This document shows positions 45,365 through 64,000 of a stretch of DNA of 64,000 nucleotides, in pieces. The DNA is from Cryptosporidium bovis. Lineage: Eukaryota > Apicomplexa > Conoidasida > Eucoccidiorida > Cryptosporidiidae. The first letter of the stretch is position 1. Every line of letters starts with the position of its first letter. The DNA is taken from positions 310,001-374,000 of the forward strand of contig VHIT02000012.1 in the NCBI GenBank assembly GCA_009768925.2. Direction: 5' to 3'. The notes beneath the pieces were generated by a model. It had not been told where the DNA came from. It did not search any database and saw only the letters and a program-made list of their open reading frames with translations. The translations under genes and the position numbers were made by a program.

Positions 45365-46049
45365 GTTTACAAAATGAAAGAGACCAATTTCTAGGAATTA
45401 TATACTTAAATGAATCTAGAATTAATATTATATCCATAAACCTTGTTTCCAGTTTAACTTTTTTTCTTTTGTCCGTTTATGTTAGACAACATCAAACTAC
45501 AATAGTTGATTTAATAGGCCACTATTTGGTAAAATCAAGAAATTAACATTAAATCATTTAAAAAAACGTTTGCTTATTGAATAAAAGGCAAAATACTTAA
45601 AATATATTTCGTTATAATAACGAAGATCTACTTATTTTTTATATATATTTTATCTGACATTAACCTATAAAACCATTCAATCCCCATTAATAATTATGTT
45701 CACTAGAGTCTAGAGTATTCATATATAATAAAACTCTAAGAGAGCAATATTATATATGTTATATTTGAATAGGAGTCATATTCTGTTTATATAATGTACA
45801 TATTCCATTACAACAGTACTCTTACCCTATTTATACTTACTACTCCTTCAGGAGTTGGTAAACAGAACTCTTGCGGGTTGGTTCAGCGGCAAAAATTTCC
45901 GTTTTTTATTTTCAGGAGGATCTCAGTATTTAGCAAGAGGCAATAAAGGAAGTATTGAGGGTATATTTTATACTTAACACTAAGGCAATAACGGATCATC
46001 CCAAACCGCAAGTTTGACTCTTTCCGCAGTTGGAACAGAGGATAAAAGA
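45365..46049. promoter_or_regulatory. divergent region upstream of Hrd1
   Basis: This is a mostly AT-rich spacer. The part at 45840-45900 is GC-richer, with ACTCC-ttca-GGAGT (45842-45855) as a short hairpin and GGTTCAGCGGC close by. The Hrd1 frame is open from 46014, but with TTG; the first ATG is 46050. No other gene is seen. Confidence 0.35.
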
Positions 46050-47924
46050 ATGTTTCCCATTACATTTAAACAATACGTTACATTAAGTTTTGTGCTTCTG
46101 ATTGGATTATTTATGCATCTGTTAAATGTATACGACTATAACTTCTTTCATATAATTATGCACATAACCGTGACTAAAGCATCAACTATTGTTATAACGA
46201 ATGCAGGTTTTATAACTATGTTTTACTGTGGGAAGCTTGTATTAAATATATTTATCGGGAGATTAAGAGACATTGAAATCGAAGAGATTATAGATCAGGG
46301 AAGGATGTTTTTGTTGGATACTATATTCTTTCTACTGTTCAGTAGCCCTACAATTAATAATGTGGAGGTTGGTGCGATGGTCTTATCTAGGTATATTACA
46401 TTAGTTTTATTATTAAAAATGTTACACTTGATAATTCATATAAGGATTAATCATATGTTTGAGGTTGAGAGACCAAGGGTTTTTAACGTTATAAGAGTTG
46501 CACTACTGTTAAATATATTGCTAGTCATCGATTTAAGTTTGATCTTTAGATATTTGGGATTGCTTTCAAGAGAATCTACACTTAGATTGTGGATATTTTT
46601 TGAAAGTATTTCTTTATTTGTATCATGTGTAATATCTACAGGGAAGTATATCGTCCATGTTATTGATTTAAAAATTCAAGCACTTCAATTAAATATGAGG
46701 AAGTTAGAAGAAGACACAAATTATCAATATAATGGTGATTCAACAAACTCTTCACATAATTTCGTCTGGTCAAATAAAAATGCAGTACTATTCTATATGG
46801 AGGTTATTGGTGACATTTGCTCATTGGTGTCATATTTGTTATTTATAATATTATTTTTGCTATTAAACCCATCAAGAATTCCACTTTATATAATGGGTGA
46901 TATTTTACACATTATCAAGGCATTATATAATAAATTATCTTCTTTTAGAAGATATAGGAAATTAACTAAAAATATGGAAACAAAGTTTCAAGAGGCAACG
47001 CTTGAAGAAATTGAAAGAGTTGATACTTGTATTGTCTGCAGAGATACACTGTATATTGGTTCTAAAAAGATCCCATGTGGTCACGTCTTCCATTTGGACT
47101 GCCTAAAGTCTTGGTTTATACAGCAACAAACTTGTCCAATTTGCAGGTCTCCCATTAATATACAGGATGACGTCCAAGAAATTGGGGTCAGTGTTAGAAA
47201 TGAAAGAGAGGAGGAAAACAATGCTAACTTTGAGGAAAATTCAAACAATGCATCTGAAGTTAGTGACCGCATTTACCACAATAACCCACTAAATAACAAC
47301 AATTTACAGAATTCAGATACAGGTGATAAAATTGAACAAATGAATATAAATAAAGATGAAAATCAGAGCTCAAGTGAAACAAATATTAAAATACTAAGGG
47401 GTATTCTAAAGGGTTTTGTAATCTCTGAGACAAAGAATGTTCATAGTATTTCTAATACAGATAATGAATTAGGCACTAAGAAATATAAGCCATCAACACA
47501 TCCACTGTTAAAAAGGAATAATTTTCACTCACCTCCCAAAAACTCAATTAAAAAAAATGATTTCGATCCTTGTAGCAGCAATCTCACACAAACACCACCT
47601 ATTAGACCACAAGATTTGTTGAAAATAAATCAAGAAATTCCAGAATGCCACACTTTTTCAGACAAATTTAACTTTGGTCCAGCACCCGAAGTTTATAGAA
47701 AAAATGCAGACATATGGCTATGCAGGATAAGTGAATTAATTAATTCCCAACAACACATCGGAGACGCCACAAGTTACAACATCGGTCTGAGAATTGAAGA
47801 GGAAAAAGGCAGTTATATAAAGGGTAACTCACATATTCCTGAAGTTGAAGAAGGTCATGAGATGAAAAACTCGTTCGATGATCTGTTTAATACAGTTAAA
47901 TGGCAATTAAGATATCCCGACTAA
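46050..47924 (+). CDS. HRD1: Hrd1/synoviolin-type ER ubiquitin ligase
   Basis: This 624-aa RING E3 ligase is central to ER-associated degradation. The N-terminal half holds multiple membrane segments (VTLSFVLLIGLFMHLLNVY, FITMFYCGKLVLNIFIG, VALLLNILLVIDLSLIF, SYLLFIILFLLLNPS). The RING-H2 finger (about 326-368) reads CIVCRDTL, CGHVFHLDCL and CPICRSPI, with all eight ligands. The preceding LEEIERVDTC matches Hrd1 proteins. The C-terminal half is disordered, Asn-rich and Ser-rich, as in other family members. The start is ATG 46050 rather than TTG 46014. Confidence 0.92.
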   Translation: MFPITFKQYVTLSFVLLIGLFMHLLNVYDYNFFHIIMHITVTKASTIVITNAGFITMFYCGKLVLNIFIGRLRDIEIEEIIDQGRMFLLDTIFFLLFSSPTINNVEVGAMVLSRYITLVLLLKMLHLIIHIRINHMFEVERPRVFNVIRVALLLNILLVIDLSLIFRYLGLLSRESTLRLWIFFESISLFVSCVISTGKYIVHVIDLKIQALQLNMRKLEEDTNYQYNGDSTNSSHNFVWSNKNAVLFYMEVIGDICSLVSYLLFIILFLLLNPSRIPLYIMGDILHIIKALYNKLSSFRRYRKLTKNMETKFQEATLEEIERVDTCIVCRDTLYIGSKKIPCGHVFHLDCLKSWFIQQQTCPICRSPINIQDDVQEIGVSVRNEREEENNANFEENSNNASEVSDRIYHNNPLNNNNLQNSDTGDKIEQMNINKDENQSSSETNIKILRGILKGFVISETKNVHSISNTDNELGTKKYKPSTHPLLKRNNFHSPPKNSIKKNDFDPCSSNLTQTPPIRPQDLLKINQEIPECHTFSDKFNFGPAPEVYRKNADIWLCRISELINSQQHIGDATSYNIGLRIEEEKGSYIKGNSHIPEVEEGHEMKNSFDDLFNTVKWQLRYPD

Positions 47925-49279: not shown

Positions 49280-50596
49280 TTAATTTTTAAGTTTCCTCAA
49301 GCTACCTAAAATTTCGGACAATTCTTCAGAAATTAATTCAAATCTTTTACATTCATTTATTTTGCACTCGAACAAGCTATAGGTTGTTTTTTGATCTTTT
49401 TGTTTTTCTCCAAGTTCCTTCGATAATTCAACTCCTAATTTTACACATTTAGATATCAAATTGCCTATTTTCTCCATTTTCAAATTATCCCCACCTCTGA
49501 AAGTATAAATAAGAGTCCCAAACGTAATAGAGGCTCTATCTTTTCCACATGAATTTACTGAGTGTCTTATTCCGCATTTCATTAGAACCTCGGATATTAA
49601 TTCATATGGAAATAGCTCTTTGGAACAATTTATTGAAACTAAATGTGTGTCGGTTCCATTACAAATTAATGGAACTCCGTTATTTAAAAGAGTTTTCGCT
49701 AAAACTTTAGAATTGTTCACTGCCTCTTGAACAAAGTGACTTATTTGAGAGTTCATTAATCCGTGAAGTTGAACGGCCAATGATCCTATTTGATTATTAT
49801 GCGGTCCACCTTGAATCCCAGGAAAGACTGCCATATTTATTTTCTGAAACAGACCAGGATTTTTCGTGTTATTAACAATAATAAAGCCACCTTTTGGCCC
49901 ACCGATGCTACTTTGTGTATCAGAAAAAATTATATCACCGTATTCAAATGGGTTTGAGTTCTCATCACCGTATCTATTTGCGGAAATCAGAATAGCTATT
50001 TCACTTATATCTATCGCAAAAATAATACCAAATTCCTCACAAATTTCGTATATTGACTTGAAGTCAATAATTTTTGGCATTGACATAGACGAAATAACCA
50101 ATAATTTTGGTTTAAGTATTTCACACTTTAACCTTAATTCTTGAATGTTAAATCCGTCATAGTTATCATCCATATTAAAATATTCAACCTGATAATACTT
50201 CTCCAATGCACTTTTCTCGTTTTCATTACAATAAAAAGTGATAATTCTACCCATTTTTTCTACGGACCCCATGCATATTGCAAATCTAGCATATGTTGAA
50301 CTATAACATTGAACATTAAACAACCACTCATATCTGCTTTTTTCTAAGTGAAAAAATTTCTTTAATCTTTCAGTACAGAGTGTTTCTATTTTGTCAACGA
50401 TACCAGTCCCAGTATAGTACCTCGCTCCTGGATATCCTTCTGAATATTTATTCGTAAGCACACTTCCTAATACTTCCCTTGCTGAATTCATCATCACATT
50501 TTCATTTGGATGTAAATTTAAGTGTGTATTATGGTATTCATTTTCTCTCTTAATTATATAAAGCAACTCATTATCATTCTCAACTAAATCAGCCAT
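49280..50596 (-). CDS. SHMT paralog B, lacks PLP lysine
   Basis: This 438-aa homolog of serine hydroxymethyltransferase is predicted catalytically dead on its own. It keeps LTNKYSEGYPGARYY (Tyr51, Glu53, Tyr61) and NMAVFPGIQGGPHNN, the segments that reach into the neighbouring subunit's active site. It has lost the residues that line its own site. IASEN reads HPNEN, SGSPAN reads YSSTYAR, and HGGHLTHG is replaced. D-x-A-H reads DISEI; TTTHKxLRGPR reads SDTQSSIGGPK (Ser229 at the lysine position). SGIRxGT reads ASITFGT. The fold is otherwise complete in a single open frame. Paralog A, 2.1 kb away, shows the reciprocal pattern. The longest frame starts at TTG 50626; ATG 50596 is used. Confidence 0.88.
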   Translation of the reverse strand: MADLVENDNELLYIIKRENEYHNTHLNLHPNENVMMNSAREVLGSVLTNKYSEGYPGARYYTGTGIVDKIETLCTERLKKFFHLEKSRYEWLFNVQCYSSTYARFAICMGSVEKMGRIITFYCNENEKSALEKYYQVEYFNMDDNYDGFNIQELRLKCEILKPKLLVISSMSMPKIIDFKSIYEICEEFGIIFAIDISEIAILISANRYGDENSNPFEYGDIIFSDTQSSIGGPKGGFIIVNNTKNPGLFQKINMAVFPGIQGGPHNNQIGSLAVQLHGLMNSQISHFVQEAVNNSKVLAKTLLNNGVPLICNGTDTHLVSINCSKELFPYELISEVLMKCGIRHSVNSCGKDRASITFGTLIYTFRGGDNLKMEKIGNLISKCVKLGVELSKELGEKQKDQKTTYSLFECKINECKRFELISEELSEILGSLRKLKN

Positions 50597-50817
50597 ATTA
50601 ATTGGAAGAAACACAACGACATACAAAATTTACTGCTAGACCTAATTATCCATTTTAGATTAATTTCCAGTTTAAGATTCAACAATATGGAATAATCTAT
50701 CCACACAATTTTTACAAATACAAATATAAAATCAAGGAATTATGCGCGCAAGGAAAATACTAATTACTAACAAATCATTATTCAAAATTTGGAAAACGCT
50801 TGAACCCCTAATACTTG

Positions 50818-51622
50818 TTATTTGAAGAACAAAGAGTAAACTAGTATAAATAACAATAATGTTAAAATTATTTTCAAAATAGACCTTACTTTCTCTTTTT
50901 TGCTGTTTTTTTCAGATGCAATAACCAACTCACGTAATAAATGATAGTCATCTGTATCTGTTATTACGTTTTTCGTGTTATTTCCGACTGTGTTTATACA
51001 CTTCTCTTGAGAATCTATTTCAGTCATTAGGATGCCTTGAATTTCATGCAACTCTCTTGCTGAATTATTAAGCATAGTGATATCTAATCAAAGTTTTAAC
51101 GAAATAAACATGAAAATGCTGTATTTGGAGTAGTAATATTAAACACTTACCTTTACTTTGCTCACGTAACAATTGTTCTTCTAAATCGCATGGTATTTGA
51201 TCTAAAAATTGCGGACCTTTTGATAGTATCAAGGAATGTTGAAAAGAAAATTTATTCTTATGGTTAAATCCAGCATAGTGTTTACTATTTTCAAGTGAAA
51301 ATATACATTGAAAATGTTTCAGTAAATTTTCGAGAATCAATTTATATTGAGGTTTAATGTTATCCTCATTTTCTAACAATAATATACAATATTTAAATAG
51401 TTGTTGTGTTTCCTTTATCTTAAAGCTCCTATCAATATATTCACTGTTACTATTTAAAGAATTAAAGTTTTCTTCATTTACCCTATCACTGAGATAGTCT
51501 ATGTTTTCTTTAACTTGTTTGAAGCAGCGATATACTATTTCATCCACCCCCTCATTAATAAGATTATCATTCAAAGCATTGAATTCACGTTTTAAACAAA
51601 TATAAAGATTCTCATTATTCAT
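50818..51622 (-). CDS. Qa-SNARE, syntaxin-18/Ufe1-like, two exons
   Basis: Spliced CDS complement(join(50818..51083,51151..51622)) gives 245 aa. It is a tail-anchored t-SNARE for vesicle fusion, probably at the ER. Exon 1 encodes the helical N-terminal domain and ends EQLLREQSK. The 67-nt intron (GTAAGT...ATTAG) splits an Asp codon. Exon 2 continues DITMLNNSARELHEIQGILM, then TEIDSQEKCINTVGNNTKNV, with the zero-layer Gln in DSQEKCI. A C-terminal membrane anchor (ILKIILTLLLFILVYSLFF) leaves one lumenal residue. Short-loop topology and sequence favour the syntaxin-18 class over plasma-membrane syntaxins. Treated as two separate ORFs, neither half would be recognised. Confidence 0.82.
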
Positions 51623-52032
51623 TGGGCTTTCTTAACCTCAATATTTCATTTTATAAATAAAATAGTTTCGGTGATGATTTGGGCGTAAAAATAAAACAAT
51701 ATCTCTTAACAAATAAATGTGTTCTATTAGTTCAACTACTAAACAATTGAGCTCTACTATCGTTTATTTTAATTAACCTACAAATCTTTTTTGTGAGGTA
51801 TCTAATTTACAGAATACTAATTGGGCCGTGGTTGGGCGGTAAAGTTCAATGTTCAGTTTCATTATTATTTTATTGGAAATTTCTTCGCAATATAGTAACC
51901 CGTTCATGATTATCGACAATAATTTTATATTGTATTATGCGCCTATTGCTCCAAGTTCCTACTTCTCTACCGTGCAATATATTTCAACATTTAATAAAAT
52001 TAACCAATATATTTCATTTTAACGATTTTTTT
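51623..52032. promoter_or_regulatory. divergent region upstream of SNARE and small + gene
   Basis: No exon is supported, although an ATG at 51937 opens a frame into the next gene's first candidate exon. GGGCGG-type sequence occurs near 51825-51845 (GGGCCGTGGTTGGGCGGTAAAG), resembling the recurrent GGCGG promoter motif. Confidence 0.35.
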
Positions 52033-52649
52033 ATGGCTGCACAATTACTCTCAGGGTGTTTGTTTATGGGACAAAAGGTAAAAAAATCTTATGCAGAAAT
52101 AAGAACAGTTCTGTGTGCTACTGAAGGTTTCTAGGTGCGGTATATTTTTTCAAAGTCCTATTCTAAACTTATCAATCTTTCCTTGAGGGGAAGGCCAATA
52201 TTTCCAAGTGCAATTTTTATTTTTACCTTCATGTAATGCAGAACTGGGAAATAGCAGATACTACCAATATTTGTGGAAGCAAGGGGGGCAGAAATGAAAA
52301 AGATGACTTGATCTTTGACATAATAACAGAACCGGATGACTATAACTATAATGAAAAAACAATGAAAAAAATCGTCAAATCTCAAATTGAAAACATCAAC
52401 TCAATGGCAAGTAAAATAAACAAAGAAAAAACAGAACTGGTGAATTCTTTTCCTTCATGTTCACTTGGAATTATCAATAACTTAACCCAAATTAATGCAT
52501 CTGATGAAGAACAAATGGACATAGATCAGCTTTCAATCTCAAACAGTGATATTAGACATTCTAACGATTCGCCGATATTCAACTCACAATCGAATGTTGA
52601 CATTGACCAAAGTTTGTCGGATTCACTTGTAAATCACAACATTTCCTAG
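52033..52649 (+). CDS. small acidic protein, probable intron
   Basis: The open frame from ATG 52236 encodes 137 aa. The frame is open upstream to a good polypyrimidine/acceptor (CTTTCCTTGAG at 52187). A phase-0 exon at 52033-52077 (MAAQLLSGCLFMGQK, followed by GTAAAA) would join in frame, giving join(52033..52077,52188..52649), 168 aa. The protein has KANISKCNFYFYLHVMQNWE near the N-terminus, a helical charged middle and a Ser/Asp/Asn-rich acidic tail (DEEQMDIDQLSIS). No family is recognised. The splice model is a proposal; the 52236 start is the conservative alternative. Confidence 0.45.
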
Positions 52650-52760
52650 TAAAATCCATAAATATCGTGTTAATATATTTAAAAGTTTTAAATTGATTGT
52701 TTATAATTGTTGGATGTATATTCATGTAATTGTTTTCAAGTAAAATAAACATTTTTTTTA

Positions 52761-54102
52761 TCACAATATAGAACAGATTAACTCAAACTTGGAGGCAAAC
52801 TTCGTTACCTTTTCTCTAATTATTTTAATTTCATTATTCTCCTTGATTTTTTCTATAAACTCGTCCAATGTTTCCTTTTCTGCTTGAATGGAAGAAGCAA
52901 CTTTTAAACACTGGAAAATTAATATAGAGATAAATTTCATGTCTTCAGAAGTGAGCCCCCTTGTTGTAAGTACTGTTGTACCTAATCTAACGCCACTACA
53001 ACTCATTGTTCTTCCATCGCAAGGCAATGAACTTCTACTGGATGATATGTTGCATACTTCAAGAGCTTTTTCTGCTTTAGAACCATTTAAATTAAGTGAA
53101 ATAGTGTTGATCATAACTTTGTGAGAATCAGTTCCATCAGTGAGCACCTCTATTCCTGCCTCCTTTAACTCGTTACATAATGTTTTGGAGTTAATAATGA
53201 TGTCGTTTGCATAGCGCCTCCAATTTTCTGACTTGACATATTTCAGTTGTGTGCACAAGGCAGAAACCTGATTGAAGTGAGTACTAGATTGAATCTCACC
53301 AGTTACGGAATAATTTATTTTCTCTTGAATGTTTGGTTCGATAGATTTTCTAAAAAAAAATCAAACCTGATCTTGGTCCTCTTAATATCTTGTGAGAAGT
53401 ACTTGTAATAAAGTCAGCATAATCTTTTGGAGATGGATATTTCCCTGCAACAATCAAACACGAATAGTGTGATATATCCACCATTAAATACGCTCTTACT
53501 CTATCACAAATTTCTCTGAATCTCTTAAAGTTTATCTCTCTTGGATACCCACTTGCGCCGGCAATAATAACTTTCGGTCTATAAAGTAATGCGTTCTCTT
53601 CTAGTTTATCATAATCAATTATCCCATCAGAGTTTGTCAAATAAGGAAGAGACTCGAAGAAGTAAGAAGAAAAATTCACTTTTCTTACATTCGTGTAGTG
53701 CCCATGAGTTAAATGGCCACCATGATGAAGTGATAATCCCATTATTCTATCTGATTGCTTTAAAATTGAATTTAGTAGTGCGAAATTCGCTGGGGAGCCG
53801 CTATGTGGCCTAACATTAACGTCCCAAATATCTGGATCCAAATGAAATGCCTCTATTGCTCTTTTCTTAGTAAGCTCCTCCAACTCACTGCAAAATGGTG
53901 AATTCAAACAATCTTTTTTGTCGTTATTAAACATTGAAAATGTTGAGGATAAGGCTTCTAATACACCATTTGAAACAAAGTTTTCAGATGCTATCATTTC
54001 TAGTCCTTTATACTGTCTATAACATTCCTCTCGTAACAATTCAAACATCAATGGATCTACCTCCTCTAACAATTTCTCACTGTTAAACAGTAACTCCTGC
54101 AT
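52761..54102 (-). CDS. SHMT paralog A (PLP lysine present), frame broken at A9 run
   Basis: This homolog of serine hydroxymethyltransferase (glycine/serine and folate one-carbon exchange) is about 446 aa if one base of the A9 run at 53352-53360 is skipped; otherwise it stops after 250 aa. Own-site residues are intact: MIASENF (39-42 region), SGSPANF, HGGHLTHG, DISHYS, TSTSHKILRGPRSG (Lys238), and SGVRLGT after the shift. The segments normally donated to the partner site are lost. KYxEGYPGxRYYGG is replaced by MFNNDKKDCLNSPFCSELEE (57-76), and FPxxQGGPHN by a VTGEIQSSTHFN-type sequence. The downstream frame is fully open and conserved to the stop, which argues for a sequencing indel or recent mutation. 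The start is ATG 54102. Confidence 0.85.
53352..53360. other. A9 homopolymer breaking SHMT-A frame
   Basis: Nine A on the + strand (T9 in the gene) turn the codons after GLIFF into TAG. With eight, the frame continues RKSIEPNIQEK, which fits the family (GLIFFRK). A 17-nt GTTTGA...TAG intron could be drawn here, but it is far too short and leaves the wrong frame. Confidence 0.8.
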
Positions 54103-57909: not shown

Positions 57910-58494
57910 CTACTCTTTTTTCACACTAACATGTATTTGTTCCATTACTTCTATATCTTCTCTCAGATACCTCTTTACCACCATATATCCACATCCAGCT
58001 ATTGGGCACGCTTTCTTTTTGCGATTCCCCAAATAATTTAAAATTGCTTCCTTCTCAAACACATGATTCCTACATATATCTAATTTCATGTTTGAACCCT
58101 CGTATCTATGTGAAACCGGTTCATTGAAAGTTTCTCTCGTTAAACAACATATTTTTGGTAGTTCTCTCCTAGAAATTACTAAAACATGCTCATTTTCAAA
58201 TTCTACTTCTTTTTCTTCCAGAATTTCTAATCCTAATTTAACGGCCAACAGTTTCTTAATTTCAAGAACATCAGAACCGTTACCAATACTTCCATTGTAT
58301 GGTTGATCATTTTCTCCATATAATACGCCCTTTCCCCACAACCTCAAATTCTCAAAATTAACAATAATGTCGAGTAATTTCCCCTTTTCGCTAGAAGTTA
58401 GACAGGTTGTTAAATTGTACTTATCAATAATAGTTTCACATCTTGAAATTATTTCGTTTAAATACTTTAGGTACTCTCTTAAAATATCTTTCAT
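57910..58494 (-). CDS. Nse2/Mms21-type SUMO E3 ligase
   Basis: This 194-aa protein is the SMC5/6-complex SUMO ligase class. The N-terminal half is helical (the SMC5-binding part, LREYLKYLNEIISRCETII). The C-terminal half is an SP-RING (MIZ) finger: PKICCLTRETFNEPVSH, LDICRNHVFEKEAILNYL and KACPIAGCGYMV, with CPIAGC diagnostic for Nse2/Mms21. The longest open frame extends to TTG 58563; the first ATG is at 58494. Its role in DNA repair and chromosome maintenance is known for the family. Confidence 0.88.
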   Translation of the reverse strand: MKDILREYLKYLNEIISRCETIIDKYNLTTCLTSSEKGKLLDIIVNFENLRLWGKGVLYGENDQPYNGSIGNGSDVLEIKKLLAVKLGLEILEEKEVEFENEHVLVISRRELPKICCLTRETFNEPVSHRYEGSNMKLDICRNHVFEKEAILNYLGNRKKKACPIAGCGYMVVKRYLREDIEVMEQIHVSVKKE

Positions 58495-58637
58495 TAATTT
58501 AGCAAAAAAAATACCTATAATTCTCAACACCCCACTCACTACCCCAACCCTCACATTTACCAATAGGTAGGCGCATGTGCAAGTAAAATAAATAAAATAG
58601 CATTCAAAATATTTCTGGCAGCTCGAATGAATAACAA

Positions 58638-61600
58638 TTATGGCTTGTACGAAATATAGACCAAGTTAGCAAGTGCCTTGGCAAATCTATGTCTACTTGG
58701 GGACTGAGAGTGAGCAACAAATGAAGATATTTGTTTACAAATTGCCGAGATTAGTGATTCAAGTGATAGAAGTTTATCAATTGTATCCATTAGAACCTCA
58801 TTCTCTAATAGAGTCTTTCTATGCTCTAATTCACACACTACTCCATCTTCGCTTGAATCGCAATGACTATATATTTCCCTATAGGCAAGGAGCATGAGAA
58901 TTTCTGAGGTATACAAATGCTGAAAAAACTCGATAGAGATATATTTTATAAACGTAGATGCCAAAATTGCAGATGTACCTTCTACCGCAACTTTTGTTTC
59001 TTCATTTCTCTCGAAATATTTTTCCAGTGGCTTTAGCACGGAAGGGTATTTTATATACTCTGAAATAAGCTCCATCTTCTTTATATCAAGTTGTTGAGAG
59101 AGTGCGTCAGGTAGCTTGTTACCGACCAGTGAACCAAAATTGAGTTTTTTGTCTTTACTTGCATTGTTTGGGGGAATAGTTTCATGTTCGTTGATGAAGT
59201 TTCCGCTTTCTTTATTCAAATTTATGCATGAATTGTTGTACTTTCCTTCGGAATTTGAAATATCAGTTTCTGTGACTTTTGATTCAGTGCGTGAGTTAGT
59301 ACCTAAAATATCTGGATCTGCATTCCCGTATGATTTTGATTCACACTTATTTCTGATATTTTTTCCAGTTCCCCAAAGTGTGTTAAAGTGAGAAAGTGCC
59401 ACCTTTGCAAAACTTGGAATTGAAATAACAGCAGAACTGGGTGAATAACTAAATGAAAATCTTCCACTGTATTGCTCTACCTCGGGAGAACTACCTGGAA
59501 AATCAAAATCCTTATTCAAAAAACTTTTGTTATATATAATTCCGACCACTCCTTCGTTCGAACCAGCACTATTACTGACCATTTCACCAAAAATATTGCG
59601 ATTAAATAGTAAGTGTTGTGTCTCTGCTTCTTTTTTTATTCTATCCAATTCTTTTGGTATAGTGGAAAATGCCGTTTCCGTTATTTCCCAAAGTTCCTTA
59701 GGAAAATAATAACGACATCTATTTAAATACAAGTGGCAATCTTCAATTCTCTTACCTAGTTCCCTTAATGTTGGTTTAATAATCTCTAATTTTGAAATAT
59801 CGTTGTCGCTTCCAACAATTAATTCTTCACTTAAATTTGAAATTTCATTATCTGCAGTATTTGAGATCTTTCCTTTCAAATTTTCTGACAATTGATAGTT
59901 ATGTTTTAAATTTTTTGAAGCCTCTCTTAAGATATCAGAAGAAATAATGAATGGTATAATGCAATTTAGAAATTGTTGATAGTTATTTGATTCAACAGGA
60001 TTTAAAATAGGTAACAAGAACTTCTTCAGAAATTCACACTCTCCTGAATATTTAATTTGAATAAATTTGTTTAAGGAGCCATTATTTTCCACATTCTCAG
60101 AAGAAATAGTGTCAATAAAACTGTAATCTTCCACCAAATTATTTACACTTTTTCTATAATTGGCCGGTAAAATGAACTTGTACCCATCATTACTCACTGA
60201 CTCACAGTATGGTGAGGTGAAAAACTCAACATGTTTAATGTAATTACTTTTTTCCTCTAAATTTTTGTTTTCCTGTTTTCTTGTAGAGTCTGAATAGCAA
60301 CTTTTGTCAATAACTCCAGAAAATGATTTGGAAACTTTTCCCTTATTGAATGATGACGGGCTCACTGTTGCTGATAAAGGCGAGCTCATTGAATTTTGAA
60401 CAATCAAACCATCTATAATGAACTTTCTTTTAATTTCGTTTATAACGTTGCCCCATTCACATTCTGTTAAAATGATTGATAACATTAATTGAATTGCCCT
60501 CCAAACAGGTCTAGTTAATTTTAACGTTGGTTCTTCCAATCTCACCAATAAAGGAATCAGCAGTTTTTTAATATAAAATCTTATTAAGTCCATTTCATTT
60601 TTATCTGGTTCTGAAATATCCCACTTCTGTTTTATAAGTATTAAAACATCCAATAATAGGTATAATTTTTCTGTCGTAACTTGAACATCCAAATCGCTAT
60701 TCGTTATAAAGTCCATGAATATTTCAGAAATCCTATTATTGGAATTGCCTTCAAAATCAATAGTGCCTCGTTCAGAGGATTCAGTTCGGTCACTTATTTT
60801 TGAGCAAAAAAGACACTTTATGAATAACATATAAGTAGTGTAAGTCCTATTTTCAATACAAATATCTTTGTTGGTTGCAAATTCTAAATTAACTGGTGGA
60901 TGATTTGGTATCAATAGTAGTGGCAAACCCAAATCCATTTTTGATACGATACAAACCAAATATCTTAGTGAAATAATGCACTCCCTTGTTAAATCTATTA
61001 TGAGCGATCTACTATTTATCATCATTGTTTTCACTTTTTCCTTTGCTCCGATTTCTTTAATAACTGGTTCTGAGTCAGCCAACTTATCCTCAGAGTCAAT
61101 CAAACTACTATTTACTTCTGAATCTCCAGTTTTGTCATGTTTCGGATCATCTTTAATAACTGCGTAAAAAATCCCAAAATTGCTTTCACCTACAGAACCA
61201 TCTTTATCCCAAAAAACATTTTCATTCGAGTCTTCCTCAGAGGAACAATAGTCAATGTTTTTGTAAAGATCAGTCTTTTCATAGTTGTATAAATCTAAAC
61301 TAGCATCATTTCCACCACCCTCAATTTTATAAATCATTAGTGGTCCTCTGAAATCTCTAGATTTAACAGCATCGTTTTTAAACATAGAACTTCCAATAAC
61401 ATTAATAAAACAAACATTTATGTACTTTGATATAAATTCTTCGTTCGGAAATATATTGGACTCTAAGCACAACCAAAAGTACCATTGGAAAAATACAAAC
61501 CCATTTTTCTTTGCATAAGGATTATTTGAAACTTTAATTATATTTAAAACGGTCTCTAACAACTCGGGGTCGTATAATCCAATTATATTCTCCGAATTCC

Positions 61601-64000
61601 CATCAATTCTTGAAGAATCTGAAAAATCATTAATATATATACCTAGTGGAATAGGTGACAAAAGAATTATCGCCCCCATGCTATAAACTGAGTTAATTCT
61701 GTTCAAAAATGGTCTAACAAATGAAAAAATCAATTTATAAATATTTGGCCTTTGGGTGAATATGTAACATAAAAGCTTTATTATAGCTGAGTCGAACTCA
61801 TCAGATCTAATTAGAGAAAGTTTGAGTTGGTTCGCATCAAAAAATGTCAACAACGCGTCTGTATCATACAAGGCCAAAAAAAGAGATCTCAATGCATTAC
61901 TACTCTCCAATGCTCCCATATTAATATACCCCAATGTTGAACAACATCTGAGCAATAGTGTGGAAACCAGCTCTGGAAAATGTTTTTTCGCTATAATCTT
62001 TATACCCGAATCATTTGTTTGAAGTAAAATATCAAGTACTAGTGTACTCGAACGTAGGTAAATATGTTCATCCGACAATGAAGACAACGTTGAAATAGGA
62101 ATAAAATGTTCATTGTTCATCTGAAATTGGTGCGTACCCTGTGTATTATTTACATTTACTGGATGTGACACATGCAACTTTGGTGAAAGAGAGTCTTTTG
62201 ATGGGTTCAAAAAATTTATTAGTGATCCATTCGAATGAATCTTAGTCAATGAAGCAACTTTCACACACAGTCTCTCATTTAATTCCACAATGTCAGGGTA
62301 TCTTTGCTCAGTGTTGTTCAATATATCTGTAAGGTACCTAAATGACTCTAGAAGAAGAACCTTATCCCTACCAATGTAAGAAATTGCCTTTGAATAAGTA
62401 GGGTTCACTGTGCATATAATATTGACAAAATTCCTGAGTTTATTCCCAGGAAGACTTTTATTTGATTTCCTTAAAACTGAATCTTTCCCAGAGTCAACCA
62501 TATCAATTGTTGTCCATTCACTCTTTTTCCCTTCGGAGTGATTTATTATAACGTTTTCTATATATTCCTCATTATTACTTGTAAGTCCAGGCCCATAATT
62601 GATATATCTTCGAGGATGAATACACTTGTTGAATATTTCATTGATTCCCGACTGGAATTGCCTCGAAACAACATTTCTAACTAAAAGGTAAACAAAATGT
62701 TGTAATTCACTATCTTTTATTGCCATTATTTCGTCAAATAAAGATGAAATTATCCTTGATGAAAACGACTCACTCTCTAAGATATGTTTGTTAATTGTAA
62801 AAAATACTCTTACAGTTTCGACACTTGAATATGCCGTAACCCTATCCACATCGTGAAAAGACGGCAAAATATGTTGGCATAAAGGACGTAAGCAAAATGC
62901 TGGTATATTATTTGCAAGAGTAAAGAGTAAATTCAAATACGTATGTGGTAGAATCATTGACTGGACATCAGAAAAACTTCTATCTCTGTCACCAGACAAT
63001 CTATCTTCGTGAATTCCATCACCTAATCCACCAGCACCACCTCTTAAAACTGCTCTTAACTGTTCATTATTTGCAGACTTGAGTGTCAAAACCATCTCAT
63101 CCTCAAATTCTAGAGCTCTAATTTTAGAGGCATCAATGCATTGTGTCCATACACATCTTTTCATACACTCTTTGATACACTCGAATGCAATTAACCTTAC
63201 ATATATACACGAGTCGCATGTTCTCCCCAAAATAAGTGCAACGCAGTGCATCCATGATATCCAAGTTCCCTTTGGAGGCAAAACATAATCAGAATTGTTC
63301 TGACCAACTCCATTACTACCTTTAAAATTCACCTGATTATTCTGCAATATTTCAACAAGTGGAGCCTCACAAACTAGACAATATGTTATGTGTATACACA
63401 AACATCTCAATACAGGAGAGCTTGCTGTTGCTCCTAATCCCAACAACCCCTCAAGCAAGTGGGATAACCCAACCCAAGAAGGCATGTGAGACTTATATAT
63501 ATTTAGGTACAATCGATCAAGTGAGTCTAGTATTTTAAATGCGGACACCTCACTAGGATTCGTCGGATTTAACGTGTCTTCAATAATATTCATTATCTCC
63601 TTTAACTTGAAACCACCATCTACTATTCCGAGTGATTCAGGTGGCAAATTATAACCAAAGCAATTCTTCGTGTAGATGCTAAATAAGAAATCCTCATTAA
63701 TGCATCTGAATTTAATCCTGGAAGAAACAGAAACTAGAATAGTCAAACATGAATTTATTACCAGTGGAATATGTTGCGGGACTAATGGACTTGGAAATGA
63801 AATAAGTGAGATTGAAGTCTCAAGAGCATATAATAAGAGATTGTTGAAAGTTACCGGATTTGCAGAATTGGTTGAATTGTTACTAACGCCTGAATTATTC
63901 ACGTTGTTTGTATTGGTTATGTTACTAACCCCCACGTTGCTACAACTATTTGGACCTAACACAAATGAATTTGTATTGTTACTAGCTGTAGAAAATGAAT
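58638..64000 (-). CDS. very large helical-repeat protein, 5' end beyond window
   Basis: At least 1787 codons are open on the - strand up to the right edge, so the CDS is 5'-partial; a GTG at 63962 is not a real start. The visible N-terminal part is Asn/Ser-rich, then long helical segments follow (NLLLYALETSISLISFPSP, PVLRCLCIHITYCLVCEAPL, ELQHFVYLLVRNVVSRQF), consistent with HEAT/armadillo-like repeats. Several acidic, low-complexity insertions interrupt it (about 970-1010 and 1290-1330). The conserved-looking C-terminus ends HSQSPSRHRFAKALANLVYI. No family can be named. A scaffold role is inferred from the architecture alone. Confidence 0.75.
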   Translation of the reverse strand, partial: SFSTASNNTNSFVLGPNSCSNVGVSNITNTNNVNNSGVSNNSTNSANPVTFNNLLLYALETSISLISFPSPLVPQHIPLVINSCLTILVSVSSRIKFRCINEDFLFSIYTKNCFGYNLPPESLGIVDGGFKLKEIMNIIEDTLNPTNPSEVSAFKILDSLDRLYLNIYKSHMPSWVGLSHLLEGLLGLGATASSPVLRCLCIHITYCLVCEAPLVEILQNNQVNFKGSNGVGQNNSDYVLPPKGTWISWMHCVALILGRTCDSCIYVRLIAFECIKECMKRCVWTQCIDASKIRALEFEDEMVLTLKSANNEQLRAVLRGGAGGLGDGIHEDRLSGDRDRSFSDVQSMILPHTYLNLLFTLANNIPAFCLRPLCQHILPSFHDVDRVTAYSSVETVRVFFTINKHILESESFSSRIISSLFDEIMAIKDSELQHFVYLLVRNVVSRQFQSGINEIFNKCIHPRRYINYGPGLTSNNEEYIENVIINHSEGKKSEWTTIDMVDSGKDSVLRKSNKSLPGNKLRNFVNIICTVNPTYSKAISYIGRDKVLLLESFRYLTDILNNTEQRYPDIVELNERLCVKVASLTKIHSNGSLINFLNPSKDSLSPKLHVSHPVNVNNTQGTHQFQMNNEHFIPISTLSSLSDEHIYLRSSTLVLDILLQTNDSGIKIIAKKHFPELVSTLLLRCCSTLGYINMGALESSNALRSLFLALYDTDALLTFFDANQLKLSLIRSDEFDSAIIKLLCYIFTQRPNIYKLIFSFVRPFLNRINSVYSMGAIILLSPIPLGIYINDFSDSSRIDGNSENIIGLYDPELLETVLNIIKVSNNPYAKKNGFVFFQWYFWLCLESNIFPNEEFISKYINVCFINVIGSSMFKNDAVKSRDFRGPLMIYKIEGGGNDASLDLYNYEKTDLYKNIDYCSSEEDSNENVFWDKDGSVGESNFGIFYAVIKDDPKHDKTGDSEVNSSLIDSEDKLADSEPVIKEIGAKEKVKTMMINSRSLIIDLTRECIISLRYLVCIVSKMDLGLPLLLIPNHPPVNLEFATNKDICIENRTYTTYMLFIKCLFCSKISDRTESSERGTIDFEGNSNNRISEIFMDFITNSDLDVQVTTEKLYLLLDVLILIKQKWDISEPDKNEMDLIRFYIKKLLIPLLVRLEEPTLKLTRPVWRAIQLMLSIILTECEWGNVINEIKRKFIIDGLIVQNSMSSPLSATVSPSSFNKGKVSKSFSGVIDKSCYSDSTRKQENKNLEEKSNYIKHVEFFTSPYCESVSNDGYKFILPANYRKSVNNLVEDYSFIDTISSENVENNGSLNKFIQIKYSGECEFLKKFLLPILNPVESNNYQQFLNCIIPFIISSDILREASKNLKHNYQLSENLKGKISNTADNEISNLSEELIVGSDNDISKLEIIKPTLRELGKRIEDCHLYLNRCRYYFPKELWEITETAFSTIPKELDRIKKEAETQHLLFNRNIFGEMVSNSAGSNEGVVGIIYNKSFLNKDFDFPGSSPEVEQYSGRFSFSYSPSSAVISIPSFAKVALSHFNTLWGTGKNIRNKCESKSYGNADPDILGTNSRTESKVTETDISNSEGKYNNSCINLNKESGNFINEHETIPPNNASKDKKLNFGSLVGNKLPDALSQQLDIKKMELISEYIKYPSVLKPLEKYFERNEETKVAVEGTSAILASTFIKYISIEFFQHLYTSEILMLLAYREIYSHCDSSEDGVVCELEHRKTLLENEVLMDTIDKLLSLESLISAICKQISSFVAHSQSPSRHRFAKALANLVYISYKP

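Follow-up and report, generated by a model that had tools for sequence, protein, structure and literature searches.

Two genes of the serine hydroxymethyltransferase (SHMT) type, here called A and B, lie close together in a 64,000-nucleotide stretch of the Cryptosporidium bovis genome (GenBank assembly GCA_009768925.2, contig VHIT02000012.1, positions 310,001 to 374,000; hereafter the window). The question that this locus raises is whether A and B are two enzymes or the two subunits of a single one. A first-pass annotation of the window had favored the latter: an A-B dimer with one complete and one dead active site, fixed by complementary degeneration after a gene duplication. Both genes are located on the minus strand, A running from 54102 to 52761 and B from 50596 to 49280, exactly where that annotation had placed them. 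Its interpretation is supported by our analysis: no third SHMT was recovered, and the pattern recurs on both sides of the split between gastric and intestinal species. In our view the two genes very likely encode the subunits of a single SHMT, which would be an obligate heterodimer whose one live site is a composite and whose other site is dead. The physical pairing of the two proteins and the activity of the pair we infer from their sequences.

In an ordinary SHMT dimer there are two identical sites, each formed where several loops of one subunit meet two from its partner (PMC4257618, PMC6294363). In the Plasmodium vivax enzyme, the first protomer provides Ser34, Ser100, Ser102, His129, Thr183, Asp208, His211, His236, Lys237, Arg243, and Arg371; on the folate side it provides Leu124, Leu130, Phe134, and Val141, and Asn356 lines the pocket (PMC4257618). 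The second protomer provides Tyr54, Glu56, Tyr64, and Gly272, together with Tyr63, Phe266, and Pro267 toward the folate (PMC4257618). Residues of the second protomer are primed in that source; the unprimed ones were assumed here to belong to the first. SHMT of Helicobacter pylori is divided in the same way, with loops 2-6 from one subunit and loops 1 and 7 from the other (PMC6294363). At 25 positions we compared the residue named with the sequence of the P. vivax SHMT chain, and all 25 agreed. We scored 14 residues as a subunit's own (the 11 that contact pyridoxal phosphate (PLP) or the amino acid, plus the folate residues Leu124, Leu130, and Asn356) and 7 as contributed by the partner. The own-side folate contacts Phe134 and Val141 are variable among the reference sequences and were excluded from the counts.

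Gene A retains the lysine half of the site. Present in A are the own-side loop 2 (SGSPAN, 53785..53802), the lid loop 3 with the stacking His (HHGGHLTHG, 53701..53727), the Asp-x-x-His of the own-side loop 5 (53467..53478), the PLP lysine (53389..53391), and the carboxylate-binding Arg that corresponds to Arg371 of P. vivax SHMT (52986..52988). The two segments that would reach into the partner's site are decayed, in agreement with the first-pass annotation: loop 1 (FNNDKKDCLNSPFC, 53890..53931) has lost its partner residues, and loop 7 (SVTGEIQSSTH, 53277..53309) has lost the partner Gly-Gly. Gene B (49280..50596) starts with an ATG at 50596, encodes 438 amino acids in an uninterrupted frame, and was correctly described as keeping both of these segments, namely the partner-side loop 1 with Tyr51, Glu53, and Tyr61 (NKYSEGYPGARYYTG, 50408..50452) and loop 7, the partner-side phosphate and folate loop (FPGIQGGPH, 49799..49825). 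Ser229 of B (49910..49912) does stand where the PLP lysine belongs, and the lid loop is deleted. Like A, B lies entirely on the minus strand, and so do all of these segments.

To compare these genes with their relatives, we used an alignment of 11 A clusters, 10 B clusters, and 203 other SHMTs. The clusters come from the matches listed in protein searches, in each of which about 8000 candidates were scored and the best 120 listed; among these, the nearest relatives of A and of B are all Cryptosporidium proteins. The B protein of C. felis, which is partial (329 amino acids), was left out of the residue counts, and an A-like protein from C. serpentis, P0136, was counted apart. Window A has 13 of the 14 own residues and none of the 7 partner residues; window B has 3 of the 14 and all 7. 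The same split is found in 11/11 A clusters and in 9/9 full-length B clusters, from gastric and intestinal species alike. The 11 own-side PLP and amino-acid residues are complete in every one of the 11 A clusters, and between 2 and 4 of them are left in the nine full-length B clusters. Partner residues number 0 in ten A clusters, 2 in the A cluster of C. andersoni, and 7 in each of the nine B clusters. The PLP lysine is found in one paralog only: Lys in 11/11 A clusters and in window A, Ser in 10/10 B clusters. The length of B is exactly 438 amino acids in 8 of the 10 listed B clusters.

The sorting extends beyond the residues that contact ligands. We examined the 102 columns whose identity reaches 90% or more across the 203 references, with block limits that we set in P. 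vivax numbering after PMC4257618 and PMC6294363. Under a majority rule, A keeps 28/32 own-side, 3/18 partner-side, and 42/52 other columns, and B keeps 8/32, 18/18, and 31/52, respectively. Fisher tests by residue gave p = 7e-5 for window A and p = 1e-3 for window B, but the residues of one loop are not independent; a more cautious test by blocks is given below. When Cryptosporidium sequences are compared with one another, conservation of either protein is greatest in its retained half. In A, 53/65 own-side columns are invariant versus 7/26 on the partner side (p = 1.5e-6), with 135/312 among the others; in B, the values are 24/30 on the partner side versus 14/46 on the own side (p = 5e-5), with 78/313 among the others. 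This comparison used 8 of the 11 A clusters, near copies having been dropped, and 9 of the 10 B clusters.

A canonical homo-oligomeric SHMT of the same family (PF00464; P. vivax structures 4oyt and 5xmp, H. pylori structure 6f93) also has an interface site built from both subunits, but it carries both halves on every chain, whereas the Cryptosporidium A and B proteins carry mainly one half each; neither chain combines the lysine half with the partner loops. Neither an A-like nor a B-like SHMT was found outside Cryptosporidium among 275 proteins examined, which are the top-listed matches and not a random sample (15 further non-Cryptosporidium matches outside 380-540 amino acids were dropped). 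All eight key residues are kept in 274 of these 275, the one departure being P0184, with Met for Arg371. A six-frame search of the whole assembly (9,064,136 bases in 43 contigs, possibly incomplete) for a third, canonical SHMT returned A and B as the only PF00464 matches. Relative to the Pfam curated cut-off of 27 bits, B scores 248.6 bits, and the two open pieces into which A is divided score 283.5 and 108.8 bits. At E 0.01, Pfam families other than PF00464, including the AOS family, matched neither protein. Against NF000586 (threshold 335 bits), C. parvum A scores 349, C. serpentis P0136 310.5, window B 218.6, and C. tyzzeri B 214.4; the window A pieces score 215.1 and 109.1, each being only a partial protein.

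In the proposed heterodimer, A would supply the lysine half, that is, the PLP lysine, the lid loop with the stacking His, the Asp/His pair, and the carboxylate Arg. B would supply loops 1 and 7 (Tyr/Glu/Tyr and FPGxQGGPH), which would touch PLP, substrate, and folate. The live site would convert serine and tetrahydrofolate (THF) to glycine and methylene-THF, feeding the bifunctional dihydrofolate reductase-thymidylate synthase (DHFR-TS). The mirror site, composed of B's own half and A's partner loops, would be dead, having neither the lysine nor the Tyr/Glu/Tyr loop. An A-A dimer would offer PLP and substrate none of the partner contacts and would not be expected to work as an SHMT, and the same is expected of a B-B dimer, in which the retained loops would lie opposite a pocket that has no lysine, stacking His, or lid. 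Loops so placed could not be maintained by selection for SHMT activity, and those of B make sense only opposite a lysine-bearing subunit.

The genome encodes dihydrofolate reductase and thymidylate synthase in one frame of 544 amino acids. GCV_T, GDC-P, the two MTHFD domains, FTHFS, and MTHFR had no match at E 0.001 in a six-frame search of the same, possibly incomplete, assembly. As a control, the same models were run on 14 genomes, where matches were obtained in 11 (GCV_T), 10 (GDC-P), 12 and 12 (the MTHFD domains), 4 (FTHFS, a weak control), and 11 (MTHFR). Since DHFR-TS is present and the other routes are unmatched, A and B together would be, on this evidence, the only recognizable supplier of methylene-THF in the genome. 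The recognizable folate set is a reduced one, in which DHFR-TS is retained and glycine cleavage, MTHFD, FTHFS, and MTHFR are without a match. The glycine-forming lyase family PF01212 has one match, at 24.3 bits, below its cut-off of 27 bits.

In a phylogeny of 46 sequences, the A sequences (6) and the B sequences (6) each fall on one side of a branch with 100/100 support. C. andersoni is the earliest branch within A, and C. muris is the earliest within B. Because the gastric species branch first in both groups, the two halves probably predate the divergence of gastric and intestinal species. B is set apart from A by a long branch, and the residue composition of two B sequences is atypical. The two partner residues that remain in C. 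andersoni A are what would be expected if these loops decayed after the duplication, and chance may also account for them. We infer that a duplicated gene gave rise to the pair, its copies degenerating in complementary fashion, at a time before gastric and intestinal species diverged. It appears likely that Cryptosporidium depends for its one-carbon metabolism on one split SHMT, in the form of an obligate A-B pair that became fixed in this manner before the divergence.

Several observations weigh against an obligate heterodimer of this origin. The tree that unites A and B as a single clade was neither rejected nor demonstrated (p-AU 0.33). Tested by blocks, the sorting amounts to no more than 1 in 28, since two of the eight blocks can be picked in 28 ways, one of which is as extreme as that observed. 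The first-pass annotation stated that A keeps the whole first set of residues; this holds for SGSPAN, HGGH, DxxH, SHK, and the final Arg. The folate residue Asn356, which was not part of that set, is Ser in 11/11 A clusters. Its statement that B lacks the entire first set was too strong: although only the 3 own residues out of 14 counted above are kept in window B, Asp208 is retained in 10/10 B clusters, Ser100 in 9/9 of the clusters that cover it, and Ser102 in 8/9 (Thr in the window). The A-like P0136 of C. serpentis, a protein of 559 amino acids, has Met in place of the PLP lysine and an insert of about 100 amino acids in loop 1. It keeps 8/11 own residues and, of the partner residues, 1/4 and 2/3, and it branches just outside all A sequences; it is probably an extra, decaying paralog. 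The parasite is said to tolerate the loss of classical targets, including DHFR-TS (PMC8612570), which would weaken the argument from a need for methylene-THF. Finally, gene A is frame-broken in this assembly, a break that the first-pass annotation had missed.

The first open piece of A (53350..54102, 250 amino acids with a stop at its end) and the second (52761..53360, 199 amino acids and a stop, in a different frame) meet at a run of nine T (53352..53360). The pieces were searched separately, and the frame was left unmended. Runs of T are frequent sites of sequencing slips. The A proteins of relatives are single chains of 444-451 amino acids, and the key residues are present in both pieces, with no second break seen. 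Given the T run, the key residues in both pieces, and the single proteins of the relatives, a sequencing slip is the most likely cause of the break. An intron was considered and rejected on inspection: the relatives align without gaps over the junction, and the short GT...AG stretch would cut out residues that they keep. The two open pieces in different frames are also what would be seen if A were a pseudogene in this strain, the pair being nonfunctional here even if functional in relatives; this is unlikely, in view of the position of the break at a typical slip site, the intact residues on either side of it, and the first piece, which is 70-74% identical to ten intestinal-type A clusters that encode single proteins.

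The complete set of 11 own-side PLP and amino-acid residues in A, together with the missing folate Asn356, would also suit a homodimeric PLP enzyme that acts alone in an altered, perhaps folate-independent reaction, with B as a non-catalytic regulator or stabilizer that does not complete the site. Dead paralogs that activate an enzyme are known, as in trypanosomatid DHS (PMC3663545). We consider this decidedly improbable, as it leaves unexplained why all 7 partner residues persist in 9/9 full-length B clusters while the own half of B has decayed, and it provides no source of methylene-THF for thymidylate synthase. The own side of B does contain a conserved motif, [DN]TQSS[IL]GGP[KR]GG, in which Gln replaces His and Ser replaces Lys in 10/10 clusters, and because of this conservation the dead half of B may have a structural or binding role. 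There is little to recommend the idea that A and B act separately, with B newly functional (for example, in folate or RNA binding) and the complementarity a coincidence of two decays: it could draw on the TQSS motif, on the A versus B identity of only 20-27% in the four pairs compared (the gastric pair being taken from two species), and on Plasmodium, where the dead SHMTm is targeted in its own right (PMC3014972), but the losses follow subunit origin whether residues, blocks, or conservation inside the genus are considered, and the loops of a B-B dimer would have no lysine-bearing pocket to face.

The proposed A-B heterodimer can be compared to several known systems. Plasmodium is likewise an apicomplexan with two SHMT-type genes, one of them dead, for which a hetero-oligomer has been hypothesized (PMC3014972). 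However, its SHMTc is a complete enzyme that is active without a partner, 16/21 active-site residues are missing from SHMTm, and the heterotetramer of two homodimers that Read and colleagues proposed would serve targeting, without a shared active site (PMC3014972). Plasmodium cSHMT is essential, and recombinant mSHMT is inactive (PMC3521198). No such complete SHMT was found beside A and B in the six-frame PF00464 search of the possibly incomplete assembly. The nearest known kind is serine palmitoyltransferase SPT1/SPT2 (LCB1/LCB2), a heterodimer of paralogous PLP enzymes in which both genes are needed; the PLP lysine is among the catalytic residues missing from SPT1, and the dimer is presumed to have a single site at its interface (PMC6148460). 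This pair differs in belonging to the AOS family and catalyzing another reaction, and the likeness is drawn from the losses of SPT1. In trypanosomatid DHS and the AdoMetDC prozyme, a dead paralog is required for full activity of an impaired enzyme, and both DHS genes are essential (PMC3663545). Neither is a PLP fold-type I SHMT, however, and DHS is described as a heterotetramer with activation in place of a reciprocal site split (PMC3663545).

Among open-licence PMC papers (subscription papers and preprints being outside this scope), we found no split SHMT, no analysis of the Cryptosporidium A/B pair, and no interaction or knockout data for it; the first-pass annotation likewise knew of no description of such an SHMT. 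In the sections available from PMC7909243, PMC8550323, PMC3912857, PMC7414715, PMC10454211, PMC8612570, and PMC5354554, Cryptosporidium SHMT proteins are not analyzed, and the available sections of a review of pseudoenzymes mention SHMT2 only within the BRISC complex (PMC10211241). The best-supported explanation is an obligate A-B heterodimer, which would be a new SHMT case within the known class of obligate heterodimeric PLP enzymes. To our knowledge, it would be the first SHMT whose interface site is divided over two genes.

If A and B are indeed the two halves of one enzyme, they would illustrate almost ideally, in nature, how gene duplication can turn a homodimer with shared active sites into an obligate heterodimer: either copy loses the half still supplied by the other. 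The pair may well be essential, since thymidylate synthesis is fed by SHMT and a second source of methylene-THF was not recognized in the genome. A split interface of this type, absent from the other SHMTs examined, could be relevant to selective drugs against this parasite, for which few treatments exist. Some public records label A as "cytosolic" and B as "mitochondrial" SHMT, and these labels would be misleading for two halves of one enzyme.

The spacer between A and B is about 2.2 kb and contains two small frames, both without a Pfam match. For the chipmunk genotype I, C. ubiquitum, C. tyzzeri, C. canis, and one further assembly, the longest contig is equally long for A and for B; the two genes are therefore probably linked in these assemblies as well. 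The A/B region is flanked on the plus strand by a synoviolin-like RING E3 ligase (46014-47924) and by a protein with the autophagy domain PF03987 (57149-57874). Beyond the latter, two open frames overlap on the minus strand: 57910-58665, which carries a MIZ/Nse-type zinc finger (PF11789), and 58638-63998, which encodes 1786 amino acids without a Pfam match and runs to the end of the window.

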